This document shows positions 25,294 to 34,177 of a stretch of DNA of 64,000 nt, one piece after another (within the stretch, counting starts at the first letter, position 1; every line of letters starts with the position of its first letter). A program made the translations under genes and the position numbers. This DNA is from Comamonas odontotermitis (lineage in GTDB: Bacteria; Pseudomonadota; Gammaproteobacteria; Burkholderiales; Burkholderiaceae_C), in contig NZ_JACHKZ010000014.1 in the NCBI RefSeq assembly GCF_014207855.1, positions 1-64,000 on the forward strand, written 5' to 3'. The notes beneath the pieces are model-generated. The model worked only from the letters and a program-made list of their open reading frames with translations. It was not told where the DNA came from and did not search any database.

Positions 25294-25959
25294 TCAATCC
25301 TTGCCATATAACGGCGAACGCGGGCCGTAAAGCACTCCGTTGGGGTGTCCTGCTGCCAGCAATCTGGAAGTCGCGATCCCGGCTACGCCGTGGGATGCAT
25401 CGGTCGTACTATTGATCACCTGCTTGAGAAGCGCGGTGATCAACATCCCAGCCAGGCCTCCGCCACTGTTTCCGCCTTCCTCGCTGGAGGCGCTGGCTTG
25501 ACCCTTCCAGAGTTCCTGGCCATTTTTGAGATCGATCAACTGTGCCTGCACTTGCACCACTGCTGCACTGCTAATGATCATATAGCTGGTGCCATAACGA
25601 TTAACTTTGATATACAGCGCGGCATCTGCGCCAAATATTTCCCGCAGCTTGGTATATGGCACCTCATGGATGTCGCTGGGTACACTCATCCCGTTCTGAC
25701 GAAATGTTTCAGCCACCAGAGTGACCGGCATTACATAGTAGCCAGCTTCAGCCAGCGGGTAGGTGGCATGCGATAGCACACTGGGTGTCGCATTGACGTC
25801 CGGCGCATCGTTAAGTGGCGGTAGCACGAGGATCGATGTCGGCTTTGCGGCCTGAAATGCCGTCCGGTCAATTTTGGGTGCCGTGGTACAGGCAGCCAGT
25901 TGCGCAAACAAAGCAAATGTTGCAGTCCATGCTGCGATTCGGGCGATATGTCTCAACAC
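25294..25959 (-). CDS. GNA1162/DUF799-family lipoprotein
   Basis: A 221-residue lipoprotein with signal FALFAQLAACTTAP (lipidated Cys24). The core ILVLPPLNDAPDVNATPSVL and GYYVMPVTLVAETFRQNGM is characteristic of the GNA1162 (DUF799) family known from Neisseria surface-antigen work. The start is a GTG with GGAAG ten bases upstream. It is the last gene of a CsgG-DUF4810-GNA1162 operon, beginning four bases after the DUF4810 stop. The C-terminal GGNSGGGLAGMLITALLKQ segment is probably membrane-active. The three proteins may form an outer-membrane complex; function unproven. Confidence 0.86.
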   Translation of the reverse strand: MLRHIARIAAWTATFALFAQLAACTTAPKIDRTAFQAAKPTSILVLPPLNDAPDVNATPSVLSHATYPLAEAGYYVMPVTLVAETFRQNGMSVPSDIHEVPYTKLREIFGADAALYIKVNRYGTSYMIISSAAVVQVQAQLIDLKNGQELWKGQASASSEEGGNSGGGLAGMLITALLKQVINSTTDASHGVAGIATSRLLAAGHPNGVLYGPRSPLYGKD

Positions 25960-25963
25960 GATG

Positions 25964-26338
25964 TCAGCTTCCGTTTTTCTTCATGTTATTCATGAGATAG
26001 TCGATGTATTGGGTGGATTCTGGAAAAAGATCCTTTTCTCTATTCCAAGCGGCAATGGCTTTATCGCTGTGCCCTGTGTTGAGATACAGCAGACCCAGGT
26101 GTGCGTAATAGCCAGGGGGCAACTTTGCGTTTTGCGCTGATGCCTGTTCAATGCCTTTTTCCAAGGCGAGGACTTGTCCATCAGCGGATCCGCCGCCTTC
26201 TTTGAGATATTGGTATACCTGAGGCGAATAGTCGTTCCAGGCATACAGCGATTTTTGTGTTGCGCATCCGGTCAGGGCAAAAATGGCCAAAAGCAGGGCC
26301 AGCCGGGTGGTGCGGGTGAAGGAAGCCATCGATTGCAT
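25964..26338 (-). CDS. DUF4810-domain lipoprotein
   Basis: A 124-residue lipoprotein with signal LLLAIFALTGCATQ (Cys25). A short helical domain resembling one or two TPR units follows (GYYAHLGLLYLNTGHSDKAIAAWNREK). The ATG at 26338 has GAGGT nine bases upstream; a second ATG three codons in is weaker. It sits between csgG-like and GNA1162-like genes with gaps of a few bases, the order in which this family usually occurs. Confidence 0.85.
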   Translation of the reverse strand: MQSMASFTRTTRLALLLAIFALTGCATQKSLYAWNDYSPQVYQYLKEGGGSADGQVLALEKGIEQASAQNAKLPPGYYAHLGLLYLNTGHSDKAIAAWNREKDLFPESTQYIDYLMNNMKKNGS

Positions 26339-26343
26339 GTGGC

Positions 26344-27036
26344 TTACCTCGATGGTGTAATTGCAGCAGGCTTGAGCAGGCCGGCGTCAATGGCTTCGCC
26401 CAGGCGATCCACGGCTTCCCGAATGGCAAGGTCGAGCACCTTTCCGTTCAAGGTTGAGTCATAGCTCGCGGTACCGCCGAAGCCAATGATTTCGCGGTTG
26501 GATAGTTGGTACTCTCCGGCGCCCTGCACTGAGTGCACGACTTCAGACGTACGAATACTGACTACGTTCAGCGTGACTTTGGCGTAGGCCTCCTGTGTCT
26601 TGCCCCGTCCCAGAACGCCGAAGAGCTGTTTATCACCCACTTCCTTGCGGCCAAACTCTGTCACATCGCCGGTGATCACATAATCTGCCCCCTTGAGCTG
26701 CTGCGCAGCTCCCTGAAGACTGGCTTCCTGTTTGATTTCAGCCATGTTGTCGCGATCGAGCACATTAAAGCGATTGCTTTGTTGCAAGTGGCTAATTAAC
26801 ACTGTCTTGGCCTGTCCTCCAAGACGGTCAACACTATCGGAAAAAGCTCCACGCAGGTAGCTGGAACGATTATTGAATTGACCCACTGCAATGGGACTGC
26901 GGGGCCCCTGATAGGTACGTACTGCAGCTTGTGTTTTTGCAACTGCAATAGGCTGGTTTGATTCAGTGGCACAGCCAGCCAGAAGCAATGTGCCGCCGAC
27001 CAGCGCAAGCATGGCCGAGTAGAAATGAGCTTTCAT
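26344..27036 (-). CDS. CsgG/HfaB-family outer-membrane lipoprotein
   Basis: A 230-residue lipoprotein with signal LVGGTLLLAGCATE (Cys22) and the CsgG core: a DRDNMAEIKQEASLQG segment, GADYVITGDVTEFGRKEVG, a possible channel-lining YAKVTLNVVSIRTSEVVHSVQGAGEY and a conserved final helix LDLAIREAVDRLGEAIDAG. CsgG itself is a nonameric curli secretion pore, but no curlin genes (csgA, csgB, csgE, csgF) are nearby. The protein is probably part of a different, poorly studied complex with the two lipoproteins encoded downstream. The operon is noticeably less GC-rich than its neighbours. Confidence 0.87.
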   Translation of the reverse strand: MKAHFYSAMLALVGGTLLLAGCATESNQPIAVAKTQAAVRTYQGPRSPIAVGQFNNRSSYLRGAFSDSVDRLGGQAKTVLISHLQQSNRFNVLDRDNMAEIKQEASLQGAAQQLKGADYVITGDVTEFGRKEVGDKQLFGVLGRGKTQEAYAKVTLNVVSIRTSEVVHSVQGAGEYQLSNREIIGFGGTASYDSTLNGKVLDLAIREAVDRLGEAIDAGLLKPAAITPSR

Positions 27037-27214: not shown

Positions 27215-29410
27215 TCAATGAAGACCAGCCTTCACCTTCAGGCGCCATGCATGCAGCAGCGGCTCGGTGTAGCCTGAGGGCTGTTCCTTGCCCTTGAACA
27301 CCAGATCCAGCGCGGCCTGGAAGGCTGCGCCCTGTGGGTTGGCGGCGAGGCTCTTGTAGGCGGCGTCGCCTGCGTTCTGCTCGTCCACCACCTTGGCCAT
27401 GCGGGCAAAGCTGTCACGTACCATGGCCTCGGTCACCACGCCGTGCTGCAGCCAGTTGGCGATGTGCTGGCTGGAGATGCGCAGCGTGGCGCGGTCTTCC
27501 ATCAGGCCCACGTTGTGGATGTCGGGCACCTTGGAGCAGCCCACGCCCTGGTCTACCCATCGCACCACATAGCCCAGGATGCCCTGCACGTTGTTGTCCA
27601 CTTCCTGCTGCTTCTCGGCATCGCTCCAGCTGGGGTTGCTGGAGACAGGCACCTGCAGGATGGCGCCCAGCAGGTTGTCGCGCTCGCCGTCGGCGTTGGT
27701 CTTTTCCAGCTCTTTCTGCACGTCGGCCACATTGACCTGGTGGTAGTGCAGCGCGTGCAGCGTGGCACCGGTGGGTGAGGGCACCCAGGCGGTGTTGGCG
27801 CCGGCCTTGGGCTGGGCGATCTTCTGCTCCAGCATGGCCTTCATCAGATCGGGCATGGCCCACATGCCCTTGCCGATCTGGGCGCGGCCACGCAGGCCCA
27901 GGCCCAGGCCCACCAGCACGTTGTTCTTTTCATACGCAGGCAGCCAGGCGCTGGCCTTCATGTCGGCCTTGCGCACCATGGGGCCTGCGTACATGGCGGT
28001 GTGCATTTCGTCGCCAGTGCGGTCCAGGAAGCCAGTGTTGATGAAGGCGACGCGCGCAGGAGCTGCGGCAATGGCGGCCTTCAGGTTCACCGTGGTGCGG
28101 CGCTCTTCGTCCATGATGCCGAGCTTGACGGTGTTCTCGGGCAGGCCGAGCAGTTTTTCAACGCGGCCGAACAGTTCGTTGGCAAAGCCGGCTTCGGCAG
28201 GGCCATGCATCTTGGGCTTGACGATGTAGACAGAGCCGGTGCGGCTGTTCTTGATGCCATTGGCGCCATTGCCCTTGAGGTCATGAATGGCGATGGCGGT
28301 GGTCACCACGGCGTCCATGATGCCTTCGGGGATTTCCTTCTTGTCTGTGCCCCACAGGATGGCGGGGTTGGTCATCAGATGGCCCACATTGCGCACGAAC
28401 ATCAGCGAGCGGCCATGGAGCTTGACGGGCTTGCCGTCGGCACCGGTGTACTCGCGGTCGGCGTTGAGGCCTCGGGTCATCTGCTTGCCGCCTTTGTCGA
28501 AGGTTTCGGTCAGCGTGCCCTTGAGGATGCCCAGCCAGTTGGCGTAGCCGTTGATCTTGTCTTCGGCATCGACGGCGGCCACGGAGTCTTCCAGGTCCAG
28601 AATGGTGGACAGGGCGGCTTCCACCACCACGTCGGAAACACCGGCCGCATCGGTCTGGCCGATGGGGGTGGATTTGTTGATGACGATGTCGATGTGGATG
28701 CCGTTGTTCTTTAGCAGTACAGACTTGGGAGCTGCGGCGTCGCCCTGGAAGCCCACGAACTTGGCTGCGTCCTTCAGGCCCGTCTTGCTGCCGTCCTTGA
28801 GCGTGATCGCCAGTTTGCCGCTTTCAACGGCGTAAGCGGTTGAATCCTTGTGCGAGCCCGATGCCAGCGGCGCGGCCTGGTCGAGGAAATCGCGTGCAAA
28901 CGCGATCACCTTGGCGCCGCGAACCGGGTTGTAGCCCTTGCCCTTTTCGGCGCCGCCTTCTTCGCTGATTACGTCGGTGCCGTACAGCGCGTCGTACAGC
29001 GAGCCCCAGCGTGCATTGGCGGCGTTGAGGGCGTAGCGGGCGTTGAGGATCGGCACCACGAGCTGCGGGCCGGCCTGGATAGCCAGCTCGGCGTCCACGT
29101 TCTCGGTCGTGGCTTTTGCACCTTGGGGTTGCGGCACCAGGTAGCCAATGGTTTCCAGAAACTTGCGGTAGCCCTGCATGTCTTTGATTGGGCCGGGATT
29201 GGCCTTGTGCCAGGTGTCCAATTCGGATTGCAGGCGGTCGCGTTCAGCCAGCAGCGCAGCATTCTTGGGTGCCAGATCGGCCACGATGGCGTCGAAGCCT
29301 TGCCAGAAAGCGGCCTGGTCCACGCCGGTGCCAGGCAACACATCCTGGTTGATGAAGTTGTACAGCTCGGTGGCCACTTGCAGGCCGTGGATGGTGGTGC
29401 GATCGGTCAT
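27215..29410 (-). CDS. glcB: Malate synthase G
   Basis: A 731-residue cytosolic enzyme condensing glyoxylate and acetyl-CoA to malate. Length matches the monomeric G isoform (about 720-730), not the shorter A isoform. Typical stretches are [35 protein letters not shown], the nucleotide/acid-binding [29 protein letters not shown] and the Asp base region [16 protein letters not shown]. The ATG giving MTDRTTIHG is preferred; an upstream in-frame start would add 16 implausible residues. It stands alone, with a strong terminator. Its promoter shares a 450-bp AT-rich region with the divergent LC7-like gene. Confidence 0.96.
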
Positions 29411-29574: not shown

Positions 29575-29590
29575 TGATCAGTTCTGATCA
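29575..29590. promoter_or_regulatory. Paired TGATCA motif, site 1
   Basis: TGATCAGTTCTGATCA consists of two self-palindromic TGATCA hexamers separated by four bases. The same arrangement recurs at 29786-29801 and a single TGATCA lies at 29492. Such clustering in 310 bp is far above chance for a six-base word. It may bind a dimeric regulator controlling the LC7-like gene, glcB or both; no protein can be named. Confidence 0.5.
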
Positions 29591-29768: not shown

Positions 29769-29801
29769 TGATACAGATCAGAAATGATCAGATATGATCA
29801 C
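29769..29801. promoter_or_regulatory. FNR/ANR-like box and paired TGATCA motif, site 2
   Basis: TTGATACAGATCAG (29769-29782) matches nine of ten fixed positions of the FNR/ANR consensus TTGAT-N4-ATCAA. It abuts TGATCAGATATGATCA (29786-29801), a second paired TGATCA. The block ends 59 bases before the first LC7-like ATG, a plausible activator position. The rest of 29411-29860 is AT-rich and contains no gene I can support. Confidence 0.5.
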
Positions 29802-29860
29802 TTTCATTGAGTCAAAGTAATTTTTCGCAGAGTTCGCTCATCCCACAGGAGAAAAAAATC

Positions 29861-30220
29861 ATGGCAAATCTGAACGATAGCTTGAACGATCTGATGTCCC
29901 TCGACGGCGCCTTGTGTGCAGCCGTGGTGGATTACAACAGCGGCATGATGCTGGCGAGCGCTGGCTCTGGCGTCGACATGGAACTGGCCGCCGCAGGTAA
30001 TACTGAAGTGGTGCGCGCCAAGATGAAGACCATGAAGGCTCTGGGCCTGAACGAGAACATTGACGACATTCTGATCACCCTGGGCAAGCAATACCACATC
30101 ATTCGTCCAGCGGCCAAGCTGGCCGGCATCTTCGTGTACTACGTGCTGGACAACAAGCGTGCCAACCTGGCACTTGCTCGCCGCAAGGTCTCCGATGTGG
30201 AAGGTGCAATGACCATGTAA
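29861..30220 (+). CDS. Roadblock/LC7-like small protein, copy 1
   Basis: A 119-residue soluble protein whose pattern fits the Roadblock/LC7 alpha-beta fold: a first helix (MANLNDSLNDLMSLDG), strand-turn-strand AAVVDYNSGMMLASAG, a long helix with AAAGNTEVVRAKMKTMKALGL, the strands DDILITLGKQYHIIRP and GIFVYYVLD, and a final helix NLALARRKVSDVE. Family members act as GTPase-activating or scaffolding partners of small Ras-like GTPases (for example MglB), but no GTPase gene is in this window. It is about 84% identical to the protein at 30636. AGGAG precedes the ATG and a terminator follows. Fold assignment is from pattern only. Confidence 0.78.
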   Translation: MANLNDSLNDLMSLDGALCAAVVDYNSGMMLASAGSGVDMELAAAGNTEVVRAKMKTMKALGLNENIDDILITLGKQYHIIRPAAKLAGIFVYYVLDNKRANLALARRKVSDVEGAMTM

Positions 30221-30249
30221 TGGCTTGGGCATTGCCCTGTCATTCTTCA

Positions 30250-30273
30250 AGCGGGCCCTAGGGCCCGTTTTTA
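30250..30273 (+). terminator. Terminator after LC7-like copy 1
   Basis: CGGGCCC (30252-30258) and GGGCCCG (30261-30267) form a perfect GC-rich stem followed by TTTTTATTTG. It separates the two LC7-like genes into independent transcription units. Confidence 0.82.
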
Positions 30274-30490
30274 TTTGTTTTATTGCTTTCAAAAACATAG
30301 CGCTCTGCGCCTGGCGTTGGCATTCACGTGGTGCGGTGCGGGCATTCCTCGCACCGCGCTGCATGTAGGGTCATAGGCTCTTGCGCACATCGTCGTAAAT
30401 AACACACGCTTTGTTACGATTGCGATACGCTATGTTGCAGTGTGACAATCCGATCCGCAAGCATGTCTGGGTTTGCCAAGCTGCTATCAA

Positions 30491-30530
30491 ATTCAGCAAT
30501 CCATAGCCCCAAGGCGCCGGATTGCCGAAT
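30491..30530. other. Inverted repeat in the long gap between the LC7-like genes
   Basis: ATTCAGCAATCC (30491-30502) pairs with GGATTGCCGAAT (30519-30530) with one mismatch, around a 16-base loop. There is no T-tract, so it is more likely an operator or leader structure than a terminator. Otherwise the 415-base gap 30221-30635 holds only the terminator and the FNR-like box. Confidence 0.45.
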
Positions 30531-30605
30531 GCAAAACATCTTCAATGATTGATCTGGTCAGAAGTGACTTAATAAAATCACTATCACCTGAACAAGGTGA
30601 CGTAA

Positions 30606-30619
30606 CTGATCTACATCAA
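30606..30619. promoter_or_regulatory. FNR/ANR-like sequence before LC7-like copy 2
   Basis: CTGATCTACATCAA matches nine of ten fixed positions of TTGAT-N4-ATCAA. However, it ends only 16 bases before the ATG and 5 before the GTGGGG ribosome binding site. If functional it would more likely act in repression than activation. Confidence 0.35.
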
Positions 30620-30635
30620 ACAAAGTGGGGAAACC

Positions 30636-30995
30636 ATGGCAAATCTGAACGACAGCTTGAATGATCTGATGACGATGGACGGCGCCATGTGTGCCGCCGT
30701 GGTGGATTACAACAGCGGCATGATGCTGGGCAGCATCGGTACCGGTGTGGATCTGGAGCTGGCAGCCGCCGGCAACACCGAAGTGGTGCGCGCCAAGATG
30801 AAGACGATGAAGGCCTTGGGTCTGAACGACAGTATTGAAGACATTCTGATCACCCTGGGCAAGCAATACCACTTGATCCGCCCATCGCAGCGCCTGTCGG
30901 GCATCTTCGTGTATTACGTGCTGGACAACGCCCGTGCCAACCTGGCCCTGGCTCGCCGCAAGGTGGCAGATGTGGAAAGCAAGATGACCATGTAA
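30636..30995 (+). CDS. Roadblock/LC7-like small protein, copy 2
   Basis: A 119-residue paralogue of the protein at 29861, with 100 of 119 residues identical and most changes conservative. Both keep the NEVVRAKMKTMKALGL-like helix surface (NTEVVRAKMKTMKALGLN in both). Differences cluster at the loop after the first strands, at HLIRPSQRLSG versus HIIRPAAKLAG and at the C-terminus. The two could form homo- and heterodimers, as LC7 proteins usually dimerise. GTGGGG serves as ribosome binding site and a strong terminator follows at 31025. Confidence 0.78.
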   Translation: MANLNDSLNDLMTMDGAMCAAVVDYNSGMMLGSIGTGVDLELAAAGNTEVVRAKMKTMKALGLNDSIEDILITLGKQYHLIRPSQRLSGIFVYYVLDNARANLALARRKVADVESKMTM

Positions 30996-31024
30996 TGGGT
31001 CGATAGCCCGGGTTGTGCCGGGTC

Positions 31025-31055
31025 AAAAAAAGCGAGCCTTTGGCTCGCTTTTTTG
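31025..31055. terminator. Bidirectional terminator after LC7-like copy 2
   Basis: AGCGAGCC (31031-31038) pairs with GGCTCGCT (31042-31049) around TTT, flanked by six A on the left and six T on the right. It can stop both the LC7-like transcript and, from the other side, the kinase-regulator operon. Confidence 0.9.
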
Positions 31056-31069
31056 CATTGCGCGGCATC

Positions 31070-31121
31070 TATTTTGATAGCGAGCAGTGCAGTATGGATG
31101 GGCACTAGCTGCTATTTTCTA
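31070..31121. repeat. Comamonadaceae-type intergenic hairpin repeat
   Basis: TATTTTGATAGCGAGCAGTG on the left and GCACTAGCTGCTATTTTCTA on the right form a long imperfect stem. It belongs to the same family as the copies at 16058, 49748, 53356 and 56471 and lies just past the stop of the response regulator gene. Confidence 0.7.
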
Positions 31122-31147
31122 AAAAATTGACACAATCACGCCAGCTG

Positions 31148-31834
31148 TCATGCCGCCACGAGTGGCGCGCGAAACTGGTAGCCGACTTTTTGCTGTGATT
31201 GCAGCGGCACGGCCAGCGGGGTGACCTTTTCGATGCGGCGGCGCAGGCGGTAGATGGTGGCATGCAGGCTGTTGTCCGAATCAGCGGCGTTGTTGTGGCC
31301 CAGCAGGTCGCGGATCTGATCGCGGCTGACCACTTCGCCCTGGGCGCGCAGAAAGCATTCCATCAGCAGCAGGTCCGTCGGGCTCAGTTCCACGATCTGG
31401 CCGTCAGGTGCGGTGAGCACGCTGCGGCGGCTGTCGAGCTTCCAGGCGGTAGCGGTCTTGGCCGTGGTCATGATGCGACGATGCACAGCGCGGATGGCCA
31501 GTTCCACCTGCTCGAAGGTGACTGGCTTGGTCAGGTACATGTCGGCGCCTGCGTTGATGACTTCGGCAAACACCTCCGGCCCCAGGCGCCCCGAGACAAT
31601 CAGCACTCCGGCCTGCGTGCGCTTGCGCAGAATGCGGATGAGCTCTGCGCCATCCACACCGGGCAGCATCAAGTCCAGCACATAGAAATCGAAGCGATAG
31701 GGCTCGATGTCGGCCAGCAGGTCGCTGCTGTCGCCATAAGCCTGTACCTTCACGCCCTGGTTGCGCAGGTGCTGGGCGAGGAATTCGCAGTATTCAGTGT
31801 CGTCGTCGACCAGGGCGAGCGTGGCAGGGAGCAT
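31148..31834 (-). CDS. Response regulator, OmpR/PhoB family
   Basis: The 228-residue protein has a receiver domain (about 5-120) with the acidic pocket VDDD (9-12), phospho-acceptor Asp54 in YVLDLMLPG, the Ser in LIVSGR and the Lys in YLTKPV. An OmpR-type winged-helix DNA-binding domain follows (about 130-225) with ELSPTDLLLMECFLRAQGEVVSRDQI and SLHATIYRLRRRIE. It starts 21 bases after the stop of the histidine kinase gene, in the same operon. Target genes are unknown; the convergent LC7-like genes are the nearest candidates. Confidence 0.93.
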   Translation of the reverse strand: MLPATLALVDDDTEYCEFLAQHLRNQGVKVQAYGDSSDLLADIEPYRFDFYVLDLMLPGVDGAELIRILRKRTQAGVLIVSGRLGPEVFAEVINAGADMYLTKPVTFEQVELAIRAVHRRIMTTAKTATAWKLDSRRSVLTAPDGQIVELSPTDLLLMECFLRAQGEVVSRDQIRDLLGHNNAADSDNSLHATIYRLRRRIEKVTPLAVPLQSQQKVGYQFRAPLVAA

Positions 31835-31855
31835 GGTGTCTTTAGTAGTGGGAGA

Positions 31856-33100
31856 TCAGTCGTCCAGACCTTGGGGCAATTCCAGCCGCATGATGGTGCC
31901 ATGCGGTTCGCGCGGCAAGGCTTGCACCATGCCCTGGTGCAATTGCACCACAGAGCGCACGATGAACAAACCCAGCCCGGCACCTGCGCGGTGGCGGTGC
32001 TCTGCGCCGCGCGAGCCTTTCTCGAACAGGCGCGGCCGCAGCTCTTCGGAAATCCCTGGCCCCTGGTCGATCACCTCGATGATCAGTGCCAGCGGATCGT
32101 CCGATTCGGCAATGCGCAGCAGCACGGGCGTATCGGCGGGCGCGTAGTTGAGCGCATTGTTCAAGAGGTTGCGGATGGTCAGCCGCATGAGTGCCGGGTG
32201 CAGCTGCACCGTGCGCACATCGGCGTCCCACACCACCTGGATGCGCGGGCGGTTGTCCGCTGCAATATCGTGCAGCACCAGGTTGATGAGGGTGGGCAGG
32301 TCGGTGTCGGTAGAGGCGCCGGCCTTGCCGCCCACGGCCAAAATGGTGCCGGCTGCCAGCGTGTTGTCCAGGGTGCCGATCACCTGCTGGAGCACATGCT
32401 CGGCCCGCAGCAAGGCTTTGCTGGCGGGGGTGGCCTGTTCCAGATGCAGATCGGCAATCGCCTTCATCGTGGCCTGCATGGCCGCCGAGGCATTGTTGAG
32501 CGGCTGGCGGATCTCATGCGAGAGAAGCTGGAGCATATCGCTGTGCTCGGCCAGCATGGCGGTGCGCCAGTCCAGCAGGGTGCGCAGCTTGAGCAGCTCG
32601 CCTTTTTCTTCGGTGCGCTCCTGCTCGGTGGATGACAGCGCGGCCAGTTGCGCATGCAGCACGGTGGCCTCTGCGCGGGCGTGGTACTCGGCAGTGCAGT
32701 CCTGCATGAGCATCAGCACGCCATCGGCAGTCTTGCGGCTGGCCTTGCCCTGCCAGATATATGGCGACAGGCTGATGCGGCGCCAGGCGGTGACGCCGTG
32801 GGCATCGGTCTTGCTGGCGTCAAACTGCTGGCGCTGGCCGAGGGCTGCGGCCTGCAGCGTGTCGCGGTGGGTCTCCAGAAAGGCGGCGGGCAAGGCTTCG
32901 GTCAATAGCTGGCCTGCCACGCCGGTGCTGGGAATGCCGAACCACTCACACCACTGAGGCGTAGCCAGCCGCAGGCGCTGGTCGTGCCCCCAGTAGGCCA
33001 TGGCAACCGGGCTGCTGCCAAACAGGCGCAGCAGTTGCGCGGGGGCAAACCACAGGGCATCGGCGTTGGTGTTCAGTGGGGTGCTGGAGCTGGCGGACAT
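31856..33100 (-). CDS. Soluble PAS-containing sensor histidine kinase
   Basis: A 414-residue kinase with no transmembrane segment or signal peptide, so it probably senses a cytoplasmic signal. A PAS-like domain occupies about 20-140 (SSPVAMAYWGHDQRLRLATP). A coiled-coil linker rich in Glu and Arg (about 141-185) leads to the dimerisation domain with phospho-accepting His195 in LLSHEIRQPLNN. The ATPase domain shows the N-box NLLNNALNYAP, the G1 box DQGPGI and GAGLGLFIVRSVVQLHQG. It is transcribed together with the response regulator downstream. The PAS ligand is unknown. Confidence 0.92.
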   Translation of the reverse strand: MSASSSTPLNTNADALWFAPAQLLRLFGSSPVAMAYWGHDQRLRLATPQWCEWFGIPSTGVAGQLLTEALPAAFLETHRDTLQAAALGQRQQFDASKTDAHGVTAWRRISLSPYIWQGKASRKTADGVLMLMQDCTAEYHARAEATVLHAQLAALSSTEQERTEEKGELLKLRTLLDWRTAMLAEHSDMLQLLSHEIRQPLNNASAAMQATMKAIADLHLEQATPASKALLRAEHVLQQVIGTLDNTLAAGTILAVGGKAGASTDTDLPTLINLVLHDIAADNRPRIQVVWDADVRTVQLHPALMRLTIRNLLNNALNYAPADTPVLLRIAESDDPLALIIEVIDQGPGISEELRPRLFEKGSRGAEHRHRAGAGLGLFIVRSVVQLHQGMVQALPREPHGTIMRLELPQGLDD

Positions 33101-33244
33101 GGTGATTGAAAGCGAGGGCGCAACAGCGCGGCTGATAGGGCGTACAAAGTTCGCCGCGCAGGCTGGTGCGGTTTGGAGCCCCGATGATAATAGGCAGACC
33201 GGGGGCGCGTTGCCATGGTTGGCACGGCCCGGGCCAATCTTGCT

Positions 33245-34177
33245 ATGGATCGTCTCAAGCAGCTCGAATCATTTGTCGCCATTGCTACGCGTGGCAGCCT
33301 CACGGCTGCCGCCAAGGCCGAGGGCGTGGCACCCGCCATCATGGGCCGTCGTCTCGATGCGCTGGAGGAGCGCCTGGGCGTCAAGCTGCTGGTGCGCACC
33401 ACGCGCAAGCTCACTCTCACGCATGAAGGCATCGCCTTTCTCGAAGACTGCCAGCGCCTGCTTACCGATCTGGCCAATGTCGAGGCCAGCGTGAGCGCCG
33501 GCGGCGTCAAGGCCACCGGGCATTTGCGCGTCACTGCCCCGGCGGGTTTTGGCCGTCGCCATGTGGCGCCGCTCTTGCCGCTCTACCATGCCCGTCATCC
33601 GGAGGTCACCGCCTCGCTCAACCTGAGCGACCGCCTGGTGGATCTGGCTGGCGAGGGCTATGACTGCGCGATCCGCGTCGGCGACCTGCCCGATTCATCG
33701 CTTGTGAGCGTGCGCGTGGCCGACAACCGGCGCCTATGCGTGGCCACGCCCGAGTACCTGCGCCGCCGTGGCACGCCCCGCCACCCGAGCGATCTGGCCC
33801 AGCACGACTGTCTCACGCTGTCGAGTGAGGCCTCGCAGACCCGGGGCTGGGCATTTCGCATGCCAGCCGATGGCGGAACGGGCGAAGTGGTGCATTTCAA
33901 GCCGGGCGGGCCGCTGGATTGCTCCGACGGCCAGGTGCTGCACGACTGGTGCCTGCAGGGCTGGGGCATTGCATGGCGCAGCACCTGGGAGGTGGAGGCC
34001 GAAATTGCCGCAGGCCGCCTGGTGCCGGTGCTGGAGGAGTTTGCCGCGCCGCCCAACGGTATCTACGTGGTGTTTCAGCAGCGCAAGCACCTGGCACTGC
34101 GCGTGCGCCTGTGGATCGATTTCGTCAAGCACCACTACGAGCAAGCCGATTTCTGGAAAAACGGAGTATCACGATGA
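33245..34177 (+). CDS. LysR-family transcriptional regulator
   Basis: The 310-residue protein has an N-terminal winged helix-turn-helix (MDRLKQLESFVAIATRGSLT and RRLDALEERLGVKLLVRTTR). A periplasmic-binding-like effector domain follows (about 90-295), with GHLRVTAPAGFGRRH, the opening common to the CrgA/AaeR-like subgroup. The ATG giving MDRLKQLESF is preferred over upstream in-frame codons. Its stop overlaps the ATG of the DUF2214 gene by four bases, so unlike most LysR genes it is co-transcribed with the adjacent downstream gene. Confidence 0.92.
   Translation: MDRLKQLESFVAIATRGSLTAAAKAEGVAPAIMGRRLDALEERLGVKLLVRTTRKLTLTHEGIAFLEDCQRLLTDLANVEASVSAGGVKATGHLRVTAPAGFGRRHVAPLLPLYHARHPEVTASLNLSDRLVDLAGEGYDCAIRVGDLPDSSLVSVRVADNRRLCVATPEYLRRRGTPRHPSDLAQHDCLTLSSEASQTRGWAFRMPADGGTGEVVHFKPGGPLDCSDGQVLHDWCLQGWGIAWRSTWEVEAEIAAGRLVPVLEEFAAPPNGIYVVFQQRKHLALRVRLWIDFVKHHYEQADFWKNGVSR

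Follow-up and report, generated by a model that had tools for sequence, protein, structure and literature searches.

Orphan tandem copies of a predicted Roadblock/LC7-fold protein beside a histidine kinase–response regulator pair in Comamonas odontotermitis, probably derived from a Group 3 MglA system

Introduction

The first 64,000 nucleotides of contig NZ_JACHKZ010000014.1 of Comamonas odontotermitis (RefSeq assembly GCF_014207855.1), i.e., the whole stretch that was analyzed and is referred to herein as the window, contain two tandem genes, A1 and A2, which face a convergent operon of an OmpR-type response regulator (RR) and a soluble histidine kinase (HK) (Table 1). The relatives of A1 and A2 are labeled family A. 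The two genes appear to be additional copies, moved to a new site, of one component of a previously described Ras-like GTPase switch; in our judgment they are probably orphan tandem copies of an A-type Roadblock protein, which in a Group 3 MglA system would be a second or third MglB-like subunit. Group 3 systems of β/γ-Proteobacteria comprise a receiver-like/winged-helix protein, MglA, and one or two MglB proteins (Wuichet and Sogaard-Andersen, 2014; PMC4316618), and the same survey counted 328 MglB homologues uncoupled to MglA, no orphan MglB being characterized at that time. An allele of the orphan Group 3 mglB of Snodgrassella was associated with altered type IV pilus-dependent spreading and improved colonization of a non-native host (PMC11112851). 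In Myxococcus xanthus, MglC, a second Roadblock protein, binds MglB (PMC7949163), and RomY stimulates the GTPase-activating protein (GAP) activity of MglB (PMC9481161).

A preliminary description of the window had proposed A1, A2, and the HK–RR pair as its best candidate for an undescribed system. The kind of system is not new, as Group 3 systems and orphan MglB proteins (Snodgrassella, Neisseria) are already in print (PMC4316618; PMC11112851). The novelty lies in the variant, namely orphans that share a conserved upstream element, are present as a tandem copy, and are fixed beside an HK–RR pair and malate synthase G (malG). Although MglB-like orphans are frequent, few have been put to the test. 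The fixed neighborhood, the element, and the candidate GTPases in the same genome make the role of an orphan Roadblock protein, and a possible two-component input to it, directly testable.

Fold and Family of A1 and A2

An AlphaFold2 model of A2, obtained with a 57-row alignment, reached a pLDDT (predicted local distance difference test) of 94.7 and has the order H-E-E-H-E-E-E-H, i.e., the α-β-β-α-β-β-β-α arrangement of the Roadblock fold. The top Foldseek match of the model is Myxococcus MglB [6h5b; template modeling (TM) score 0.81, E 1.2e-6], and the best 50 of its 103 PDB matches at E ≤ 0.001 are all MglB, MglC, Roadblock, or Ragulator/LAMTOR entries. The predicted Roadblock fold is shared with both MglB and MglC of M. 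xanthus, although the model lies far nearer to MglB than to MglC (7ct3; TM score 0.55, root-mean-square deviation 5.3), whose helix 2 is shifted; the lower score makes an MglC type less likely.

The model thereby supports the Roadblock/LC7 fold that had been proposed for both proteins, whereas the corresponding Pfam profile, PF03259, matches neither of them; the assignment therefore required structure prediction. Among A relatives, 3 of 57 match PF03259, weakly (best E 0.045). Comparison of A proteins with Pfam, NCBIfam, and PHROGs gave nothing significant, and in a PDB sequence search the top Roadblock match was at E 0.63 only. The family is thus almost invisible to PF03259, and most of its members would escape a survey that used no other model. 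A scan of genome_contigs, covering 84,980 species genomes, yielded 104 A relatives, 80 of which were kept as loci. These relatives and the selection on both copies (see below) show that the gene pair is no product of chance.

The Home Operon of Family A

The 80 loci are divided into 58 with a GTPase upstream of A, 13 of the window type, and 9 with neither, some contigs ending early. An LC7 protein stands beside A in all 58 GTPase loci and a receiver/winged-helix protein in 53, the usual order being receiver/winged-helix protein, Ras-like GTPase, LC7 protein, and A at the end of the operon. Rab and Ras proteins are among the matches of the GTPase profile, and PF03259 recognizes each of the 34 LC7 proteins that were aligned. 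The winged-helix protein of one locus (L046; L, G, and C are our handles for loci, genomes, and contigs) was modeled with a pLDDT of 81.4; in the model the first half resembles a receiver and the C-terminal part is helical. Its top Foldseek match is the AdeR receiver (E 1.5e-3, probability 1.00), with none at E ≤ 0.001. The winged-helix protein of C. odontotermitis barely exceeds the cut-off of HTH_IclR (23.2 versus 22 bits). A further small gene, LC7b, is found in 14 of the 80 loci (including L022, L024, L034, L045, and L048); in many operons it is placed between LC7 and A, and its profile is weakly similar to both. As a separate case of proximity between A and two-component genes, receiver and HATPase frames follow a Group 3 operon on the same strand at L034:6451-7671.

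C. odontotermitis itself carries such an operon on contig C3, consisting of a winged-helix protein, a GTPase, an LC7 protein, and A3, a third A copy (68% identical), as the last gene. The LC7 protein matches PF03259 and is followed by A3, in agreement with the one or two coupled MglB homologues of Group 3. The GTPase has PGQ in G3, Thr in G2, and a G4 without [NT]KxD, which are the Group 3 motifs, its G3 reading GCPGQ versus GTPGQ in the published group (PMC4316618). The neighboring protein, judged by the model of its L046 relative and by its own HTH_IclR match, has the receiver-like N-terminus and the winged-helix C-terminus. By motifs and gene layout, the C3 operon fits the published Group 3 MglA systems, being alike in its winged-helix protein, its PGQ GTPase without [NT]KxD, and its MglB-like proteins (PMC4316618). 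Unlike in those operons, the A gene of the window lies away from a GTPase, is duplicated, has its own conserved element, and stands beside an HK–RR pair.

A second unit, of a winged-helix protein and a GTPase, is located at C9:131545-133008 (L181:6046-7509), and a profile search of 15 kb around it detected no Roadblock gene. The locus in the window has no adjacent GTPase, as previously noted, but the idea of a GTPase-free system is wrong because the C3 GTPase-LC7-A operon and the C9 GTPase unit are encoded in the same genome. In the genus, sampled as 53 genomes taken to be Comamonas (named matches 82–90% identical), 30 genomes have A; 29 of these, and no others, have the GTPase, and the sole A genome without it (G181) is 59% complete. 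All 22 genomes with the A-RR locus have the GTPase, versus 7 of the remaining 31 (Fisher p 3.5e-9, relatedness not removed). In a sample of 300 genomes of the order, 10 of 13 A genomes also have the GTPase; for the three exceptions (G091, G349, and G371), A was matched only as part of a longer protein.

A-type domains also occur in other settings. They are C-terminal in longer frames such as receiver-DUF4388-A (L232:6277-7518) and BLUF-A (L237:5503-7107), and they follow an N-terminal domain without a name in L141-L144, L146, and one frame each of L145 and L147; no similarity was found between the N-terminal domain of the A fusions and the winged-helix protein. Some of the fusion frames have an inner Met at the start of the A part, and a separate short A product is conceivable from the sequences. 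Furthermore, in G398, of the same order, an A-type orphan lies more than 300 kb from the mgl locus (L229:7292-7660, L234:5790-7412). Its neighbor is a large reading frame, which we take to be RelA/SpoT-like.

A Conserved Element Upstream of the Orphan Genes

The element TCAGAAnTGA stands 76–86 bp before the start codon in 33 of 35 orphans (A2, 26 of 27; A1, 7 of 8), and in most cases an A/T-rich stretch follows it at constant spacing. Only unique upstream sequences were counted, and those with fewer than 150 bases upstream were dropped. The orphan counts are partly descriptive because the initial alignment of these regions served to select the element. None of 85 operon A copies carries it, a comparison that is by itself an unfair control since an operon A gene needs no promoter of its own; in the region before the first operon gene, which is a fairer control, the element occurs in 2 of 89 cases (L066 and L080). 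Of 16 other solitary A copies, two have the element, L122 at 73 bp and L183 at 51 bp, and the A genes of L122 and L183 (= L227 in the A tree) both fall within the orphan group.

Among 28 rows, which include 2 that are not true malG starts, 18 have a copy of the element facing malG; it is missing in the six other genomes of the tandem clade, in L009, and in L011. The region upstream of HK (33000-33320) lacks the element. Genome-wide, ATCAGAAnTGAT occurs in three places, two of them within the malG-A1 intergenic region, and no regulon is claimed because chance could yield three places. Upstream of A1, three 10-bp direct repeats starting with GATCA are seen by eye at 29776-29805.

Duplication and Selection

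The two 119-residue proteins had been described as near-identical; 100 of their 119 residues and 296 of the 357 bases of their genes agree. They stem from a real tandem duplication, as borne out by the trees. In the A tree (quick method, 119 columns), the orphans group together (SH-aLRT 87), although a single outgroup row on a long branch falls among them; the A1 copies group with one solitary copy (96), and A1 and A2 of the tandem genomes are placed together (93). The tandem pair, present in 8 of the 22 genomes, corresponds to one clade on the RR+HK tree (100/100, one change). Fixed changes of A1, e.g., G32A and D65E, are shared by no single (solitary) orphan. Purifying selection acts on both copies, the median ratio of non-synonymous to synonymous substitution rates (dN/dS) being 0.043 for A1 (27 pairs) and 0.115 for A2 (28 pairs).

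The Kinase-Regulator Neighborhood

RR orthologues (E ≤ 1e-60) were identified in 22 of the 53 genus genomes, and in 22 of 22 the RR is adjoined by A, with HK, the LysR-type regulator, and malG. G172 (L018), in which A is accompanied by RR fragments only, no HK was found, and the exact element is missing, was excluded from this count. The window-type order is also found in the Diaphorobacter loci L009 and L012 and in two further genomes of the family (L120 and L131); L012 is without malG, and its contig ends. The family sample comprised 150 genomes, 18 of which have the RR type (E ≤ 1e-50). Outside both groups, 15 RR homologues, 50–64% identical, occur in 14 genomes of this sample. Among the 14 stretches fetched around them, 13 show a kinase beside the RR and none contains an A gene; in 5 of the 14 genomes concerned, A was matched nowhere. 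The proposal that A accompanies this HK–RR type everywhere was rejected on these grounds; the A-RR adjacency belongs to a narrow group and not to the RR family. Conserved co-occurrence of the two-component pair with the LC7-like genes, named earlier as a check, thus holds in the genus and in four loci beyond it and fails in the outside stretches.

At the genome level, an A-type domain is present somewhere in 13 of 18 RR-type genomes versus 30 of 132 without the RR type (p 5e-5, relatedness not removed), and in 9 of those 13 it is located in long frames away from the RR. Together, the gene order of the narrow group and this association would be consistent with a physical coupling of A1 and A2 to the HK–RR pair.

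Proposed Mechanism and Competing Explanations

As the LC7 fold suggests, A1 and A2 would dimerize, alone or together, and their target in trans may be a Group 3 GTPase or the LC7 protein coupled to it. Their separately controlled synthesis could tune the GTPase cycle, and the output may be the type IV pilus or surface behavior, and/or transcription via the winged-helix protein. A pilus output is possible because the genome carries PilB and PilT-family ATPases, both of which exceed their cut-offs. The weakest step is that HK and RR would control, or be controlled by, A1 and A2. Several points weigh against this reading. The comparison of the A profile with the profile of the coupled LC7 proteins gave no significant score, and the fold is the sole link between the two. 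Where the LC7 proteins have an invariant D38-G39, A has an invariant S27-G28, the two turns being matched by secondary structure. The Asp-Gly pair is conserved in the MglB proteins coupled to Groups 2–5 and is absent from A; its replacement by Ser-Gly disfavors A as a simple GAP, and, judged by sequence, A may be no GAP. Moreover, the genus associations ride on shared ancestry since the tandem copy arose once, and in 9 of the 80 loci A occurs with neither the GTPase nor the RR neighborhood.

A1 and A2 could instead partner mainly with the adjacent HK–RR pair, the RR controlling their synthesis or A1 and A2 binding and modulating HK, with a signal passing to or from the GTPase switch. We consider this possible but doubtful. 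The unbroken adjacency in the genus, the order kept in L009, L012, L120, and L131, and the genome-level association of the A-type domain with the RR type speak in its favor, as do the in-frame fusions of A with receiver-DUF4388 and BLUF and the receiver and HATPase frames behind the L034 operon; kinases of actinobacterial conservons likewise have accessory proteins (PMC13343842). The outside stretches, nearly all with a kinase and none with A, do not agree with it, nor does L018, where A persists beside RR fragments with no kinase found. Furthermore, the orphan-lineage A genes of L122 and L183 keep the element away from any detected RR or HK, and HK has no upstream copy of it. It is unlikely, in turn, that A1 and A2 serve the C9 GTPase unit and not the C3 operon, the tandem copy having arisen to supply the former. 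A C9-type unit, with no LC7 or A detected in the flanks that were fetched, is present in 9 of the 53 genus genomes, namely all 8 with the tandem copy and G182, and all 9 carry the orphan A-RR-HK locus. This match to the tandem-copy genomes is suggestive; it is close to a single event because the tandem copy arose once. In addition, the unit of G182 occurs in a genome that has no tandem copy, and two further GTPases (G199:C50 and G180:C33) have no A nearby, judged by coordinates alone.

The shared divergent element raises a connection to carbon metabolism, in which a putative common regulator would act on malG and on A1 and A2, Roadblock dosage would track glyoxylate metabolism, and HK–RR would be a bystander. 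The copies facing malG and the orphan A genes are as this explanation predicts, but the malG-facing copy is missing from the six other genomes of the tandem clade as well as from L009 and L011, and the choice of the element was made with this region already in view; we regard the explanation as decidedly unlikely. That A1 and A2 are neutral passengers, a relocated duplicate without a distinct role, is extremely improbable. Gene order and promoter similarity can be inherited by themselves, yet the low dN/dS of both copies and the conservation of the element, where much of the flanking sequence fails to align, argue for constraint. A broader scheme, which we think quite unlikely, would treat the HK–RR pair and the duplicated orphan Roadblock pair as one unit plugging in trans into two Ras-like GTPase switches; here the tandem copy would supply the Roadblock-less unit, and the phosphorelay and/or glyoxylate metabolism would set the switch through Roadblock dosage.

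Relation to Known Systems

The closest published counterpart of orphan A genes is mglB-3 of Snodgrassella and Neisseria, which encodes a Group 3 protein of 121 residues far from mglA (PMC11112851), the likeness being one of layout and description. The layout of the A-type orphan in G398 resembles these genes as well. Unlike for the locus in the window, the available part of that publication mentions neither an HK–RR neighbor nor a tandem copy. Actinobacterial conservons (CvnA-D) also combine a Roadblock protein, a GTPase, and a histidine kinase in one system (PMC4316618; PMC13343842); they differ in having a GTPase of another group and a kinase inside an operon without a response regulator (PMC4316618). 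Membership of the window locus in the conservons was rejected, as no GTPase is present there, and none of three winged-helix proteins scanned matches the conservon families in Pfam. Among the open-access publications listed by literature searches, none on these Comamonas genes was found.

Features of the Window

Table 1. Positions of the A genes, their upstream elements, and neighboring features in the window
Feature	Position	Strand	Basis
A1, A-family Roadblock/LC7-fold orphan, 119 residues, derived extra copy	29861..30220	+	fold modeled on 84%-identical twin A2
A2, A-family Roadblock/LC7-fold orphan, 119 residues	30636..30995	+	AlphaFold2 pLDDT 94.7; Foldseek MglB 6h5b, TM 0.81
TCAGAAnTGA element before A1, 83 bp from ATG	29778..29787	+	upstream comparison
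TCAGAAnTGA element before A2, 78 bp from ATG	30558..30567	+	upstream comparison
TCAGAAnTGA copy facing malate synthase G	29578..29587	-	upstream comparison
Intrinsic-terminator-like hairpin 3′ of A1	30249..30270	+	terminator scan
Terminator-like hairpin with T run 3′ of A2	~31030..31057	+	by eye
OmpR-type response regulator (RR), 228 residues	31148..31834	-	Pfam
Soluble PAS-HisKA-HATPase histidine kinase (HK), 414 residues	31856..33100	-	Pfam and hydropathy
Malate synthase G (malG), conserved divergent neighbor	27215..29410	-	Pfam and locus comparison
LysR-type regulator, conserved neighbor	33215..34177	+	Pfam and locus comparison

The convergent pair had been presented as a membrane-free PAS kinase and an OmpR-type regulator, and both designations were confirmed. 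In RR, Response_reg and Trans_reg_C exceed their Pfam cut-offs. In HK, PAS_4 and HATPase_c exceed the cut-off, HisKA stays under it (19 versus 26.9 bits), and the H, N, and G boxes are all present; HK is taken to be membrane-free because no 19-residue stretch tops a mean hydropathy of 1.28. Each A gene had furthermore been credited with its own ribosome-binding site and terminator. Sites resembling ribosome-binding sites are seen by eye before both genes, AGGAG at ~29849 for A1 and GGGGA at ~30628 for A2. The terminator scan, which gave 6 hairpin-T sites versus a mean of 3.4 in shuffles, includes the hairpin of A1, whereas that of A2 is absent from its output and visible by eye only. Beyond malG, three small reading frames at 25294-27036 resemble a CsgG-type lipoprotein cluster.

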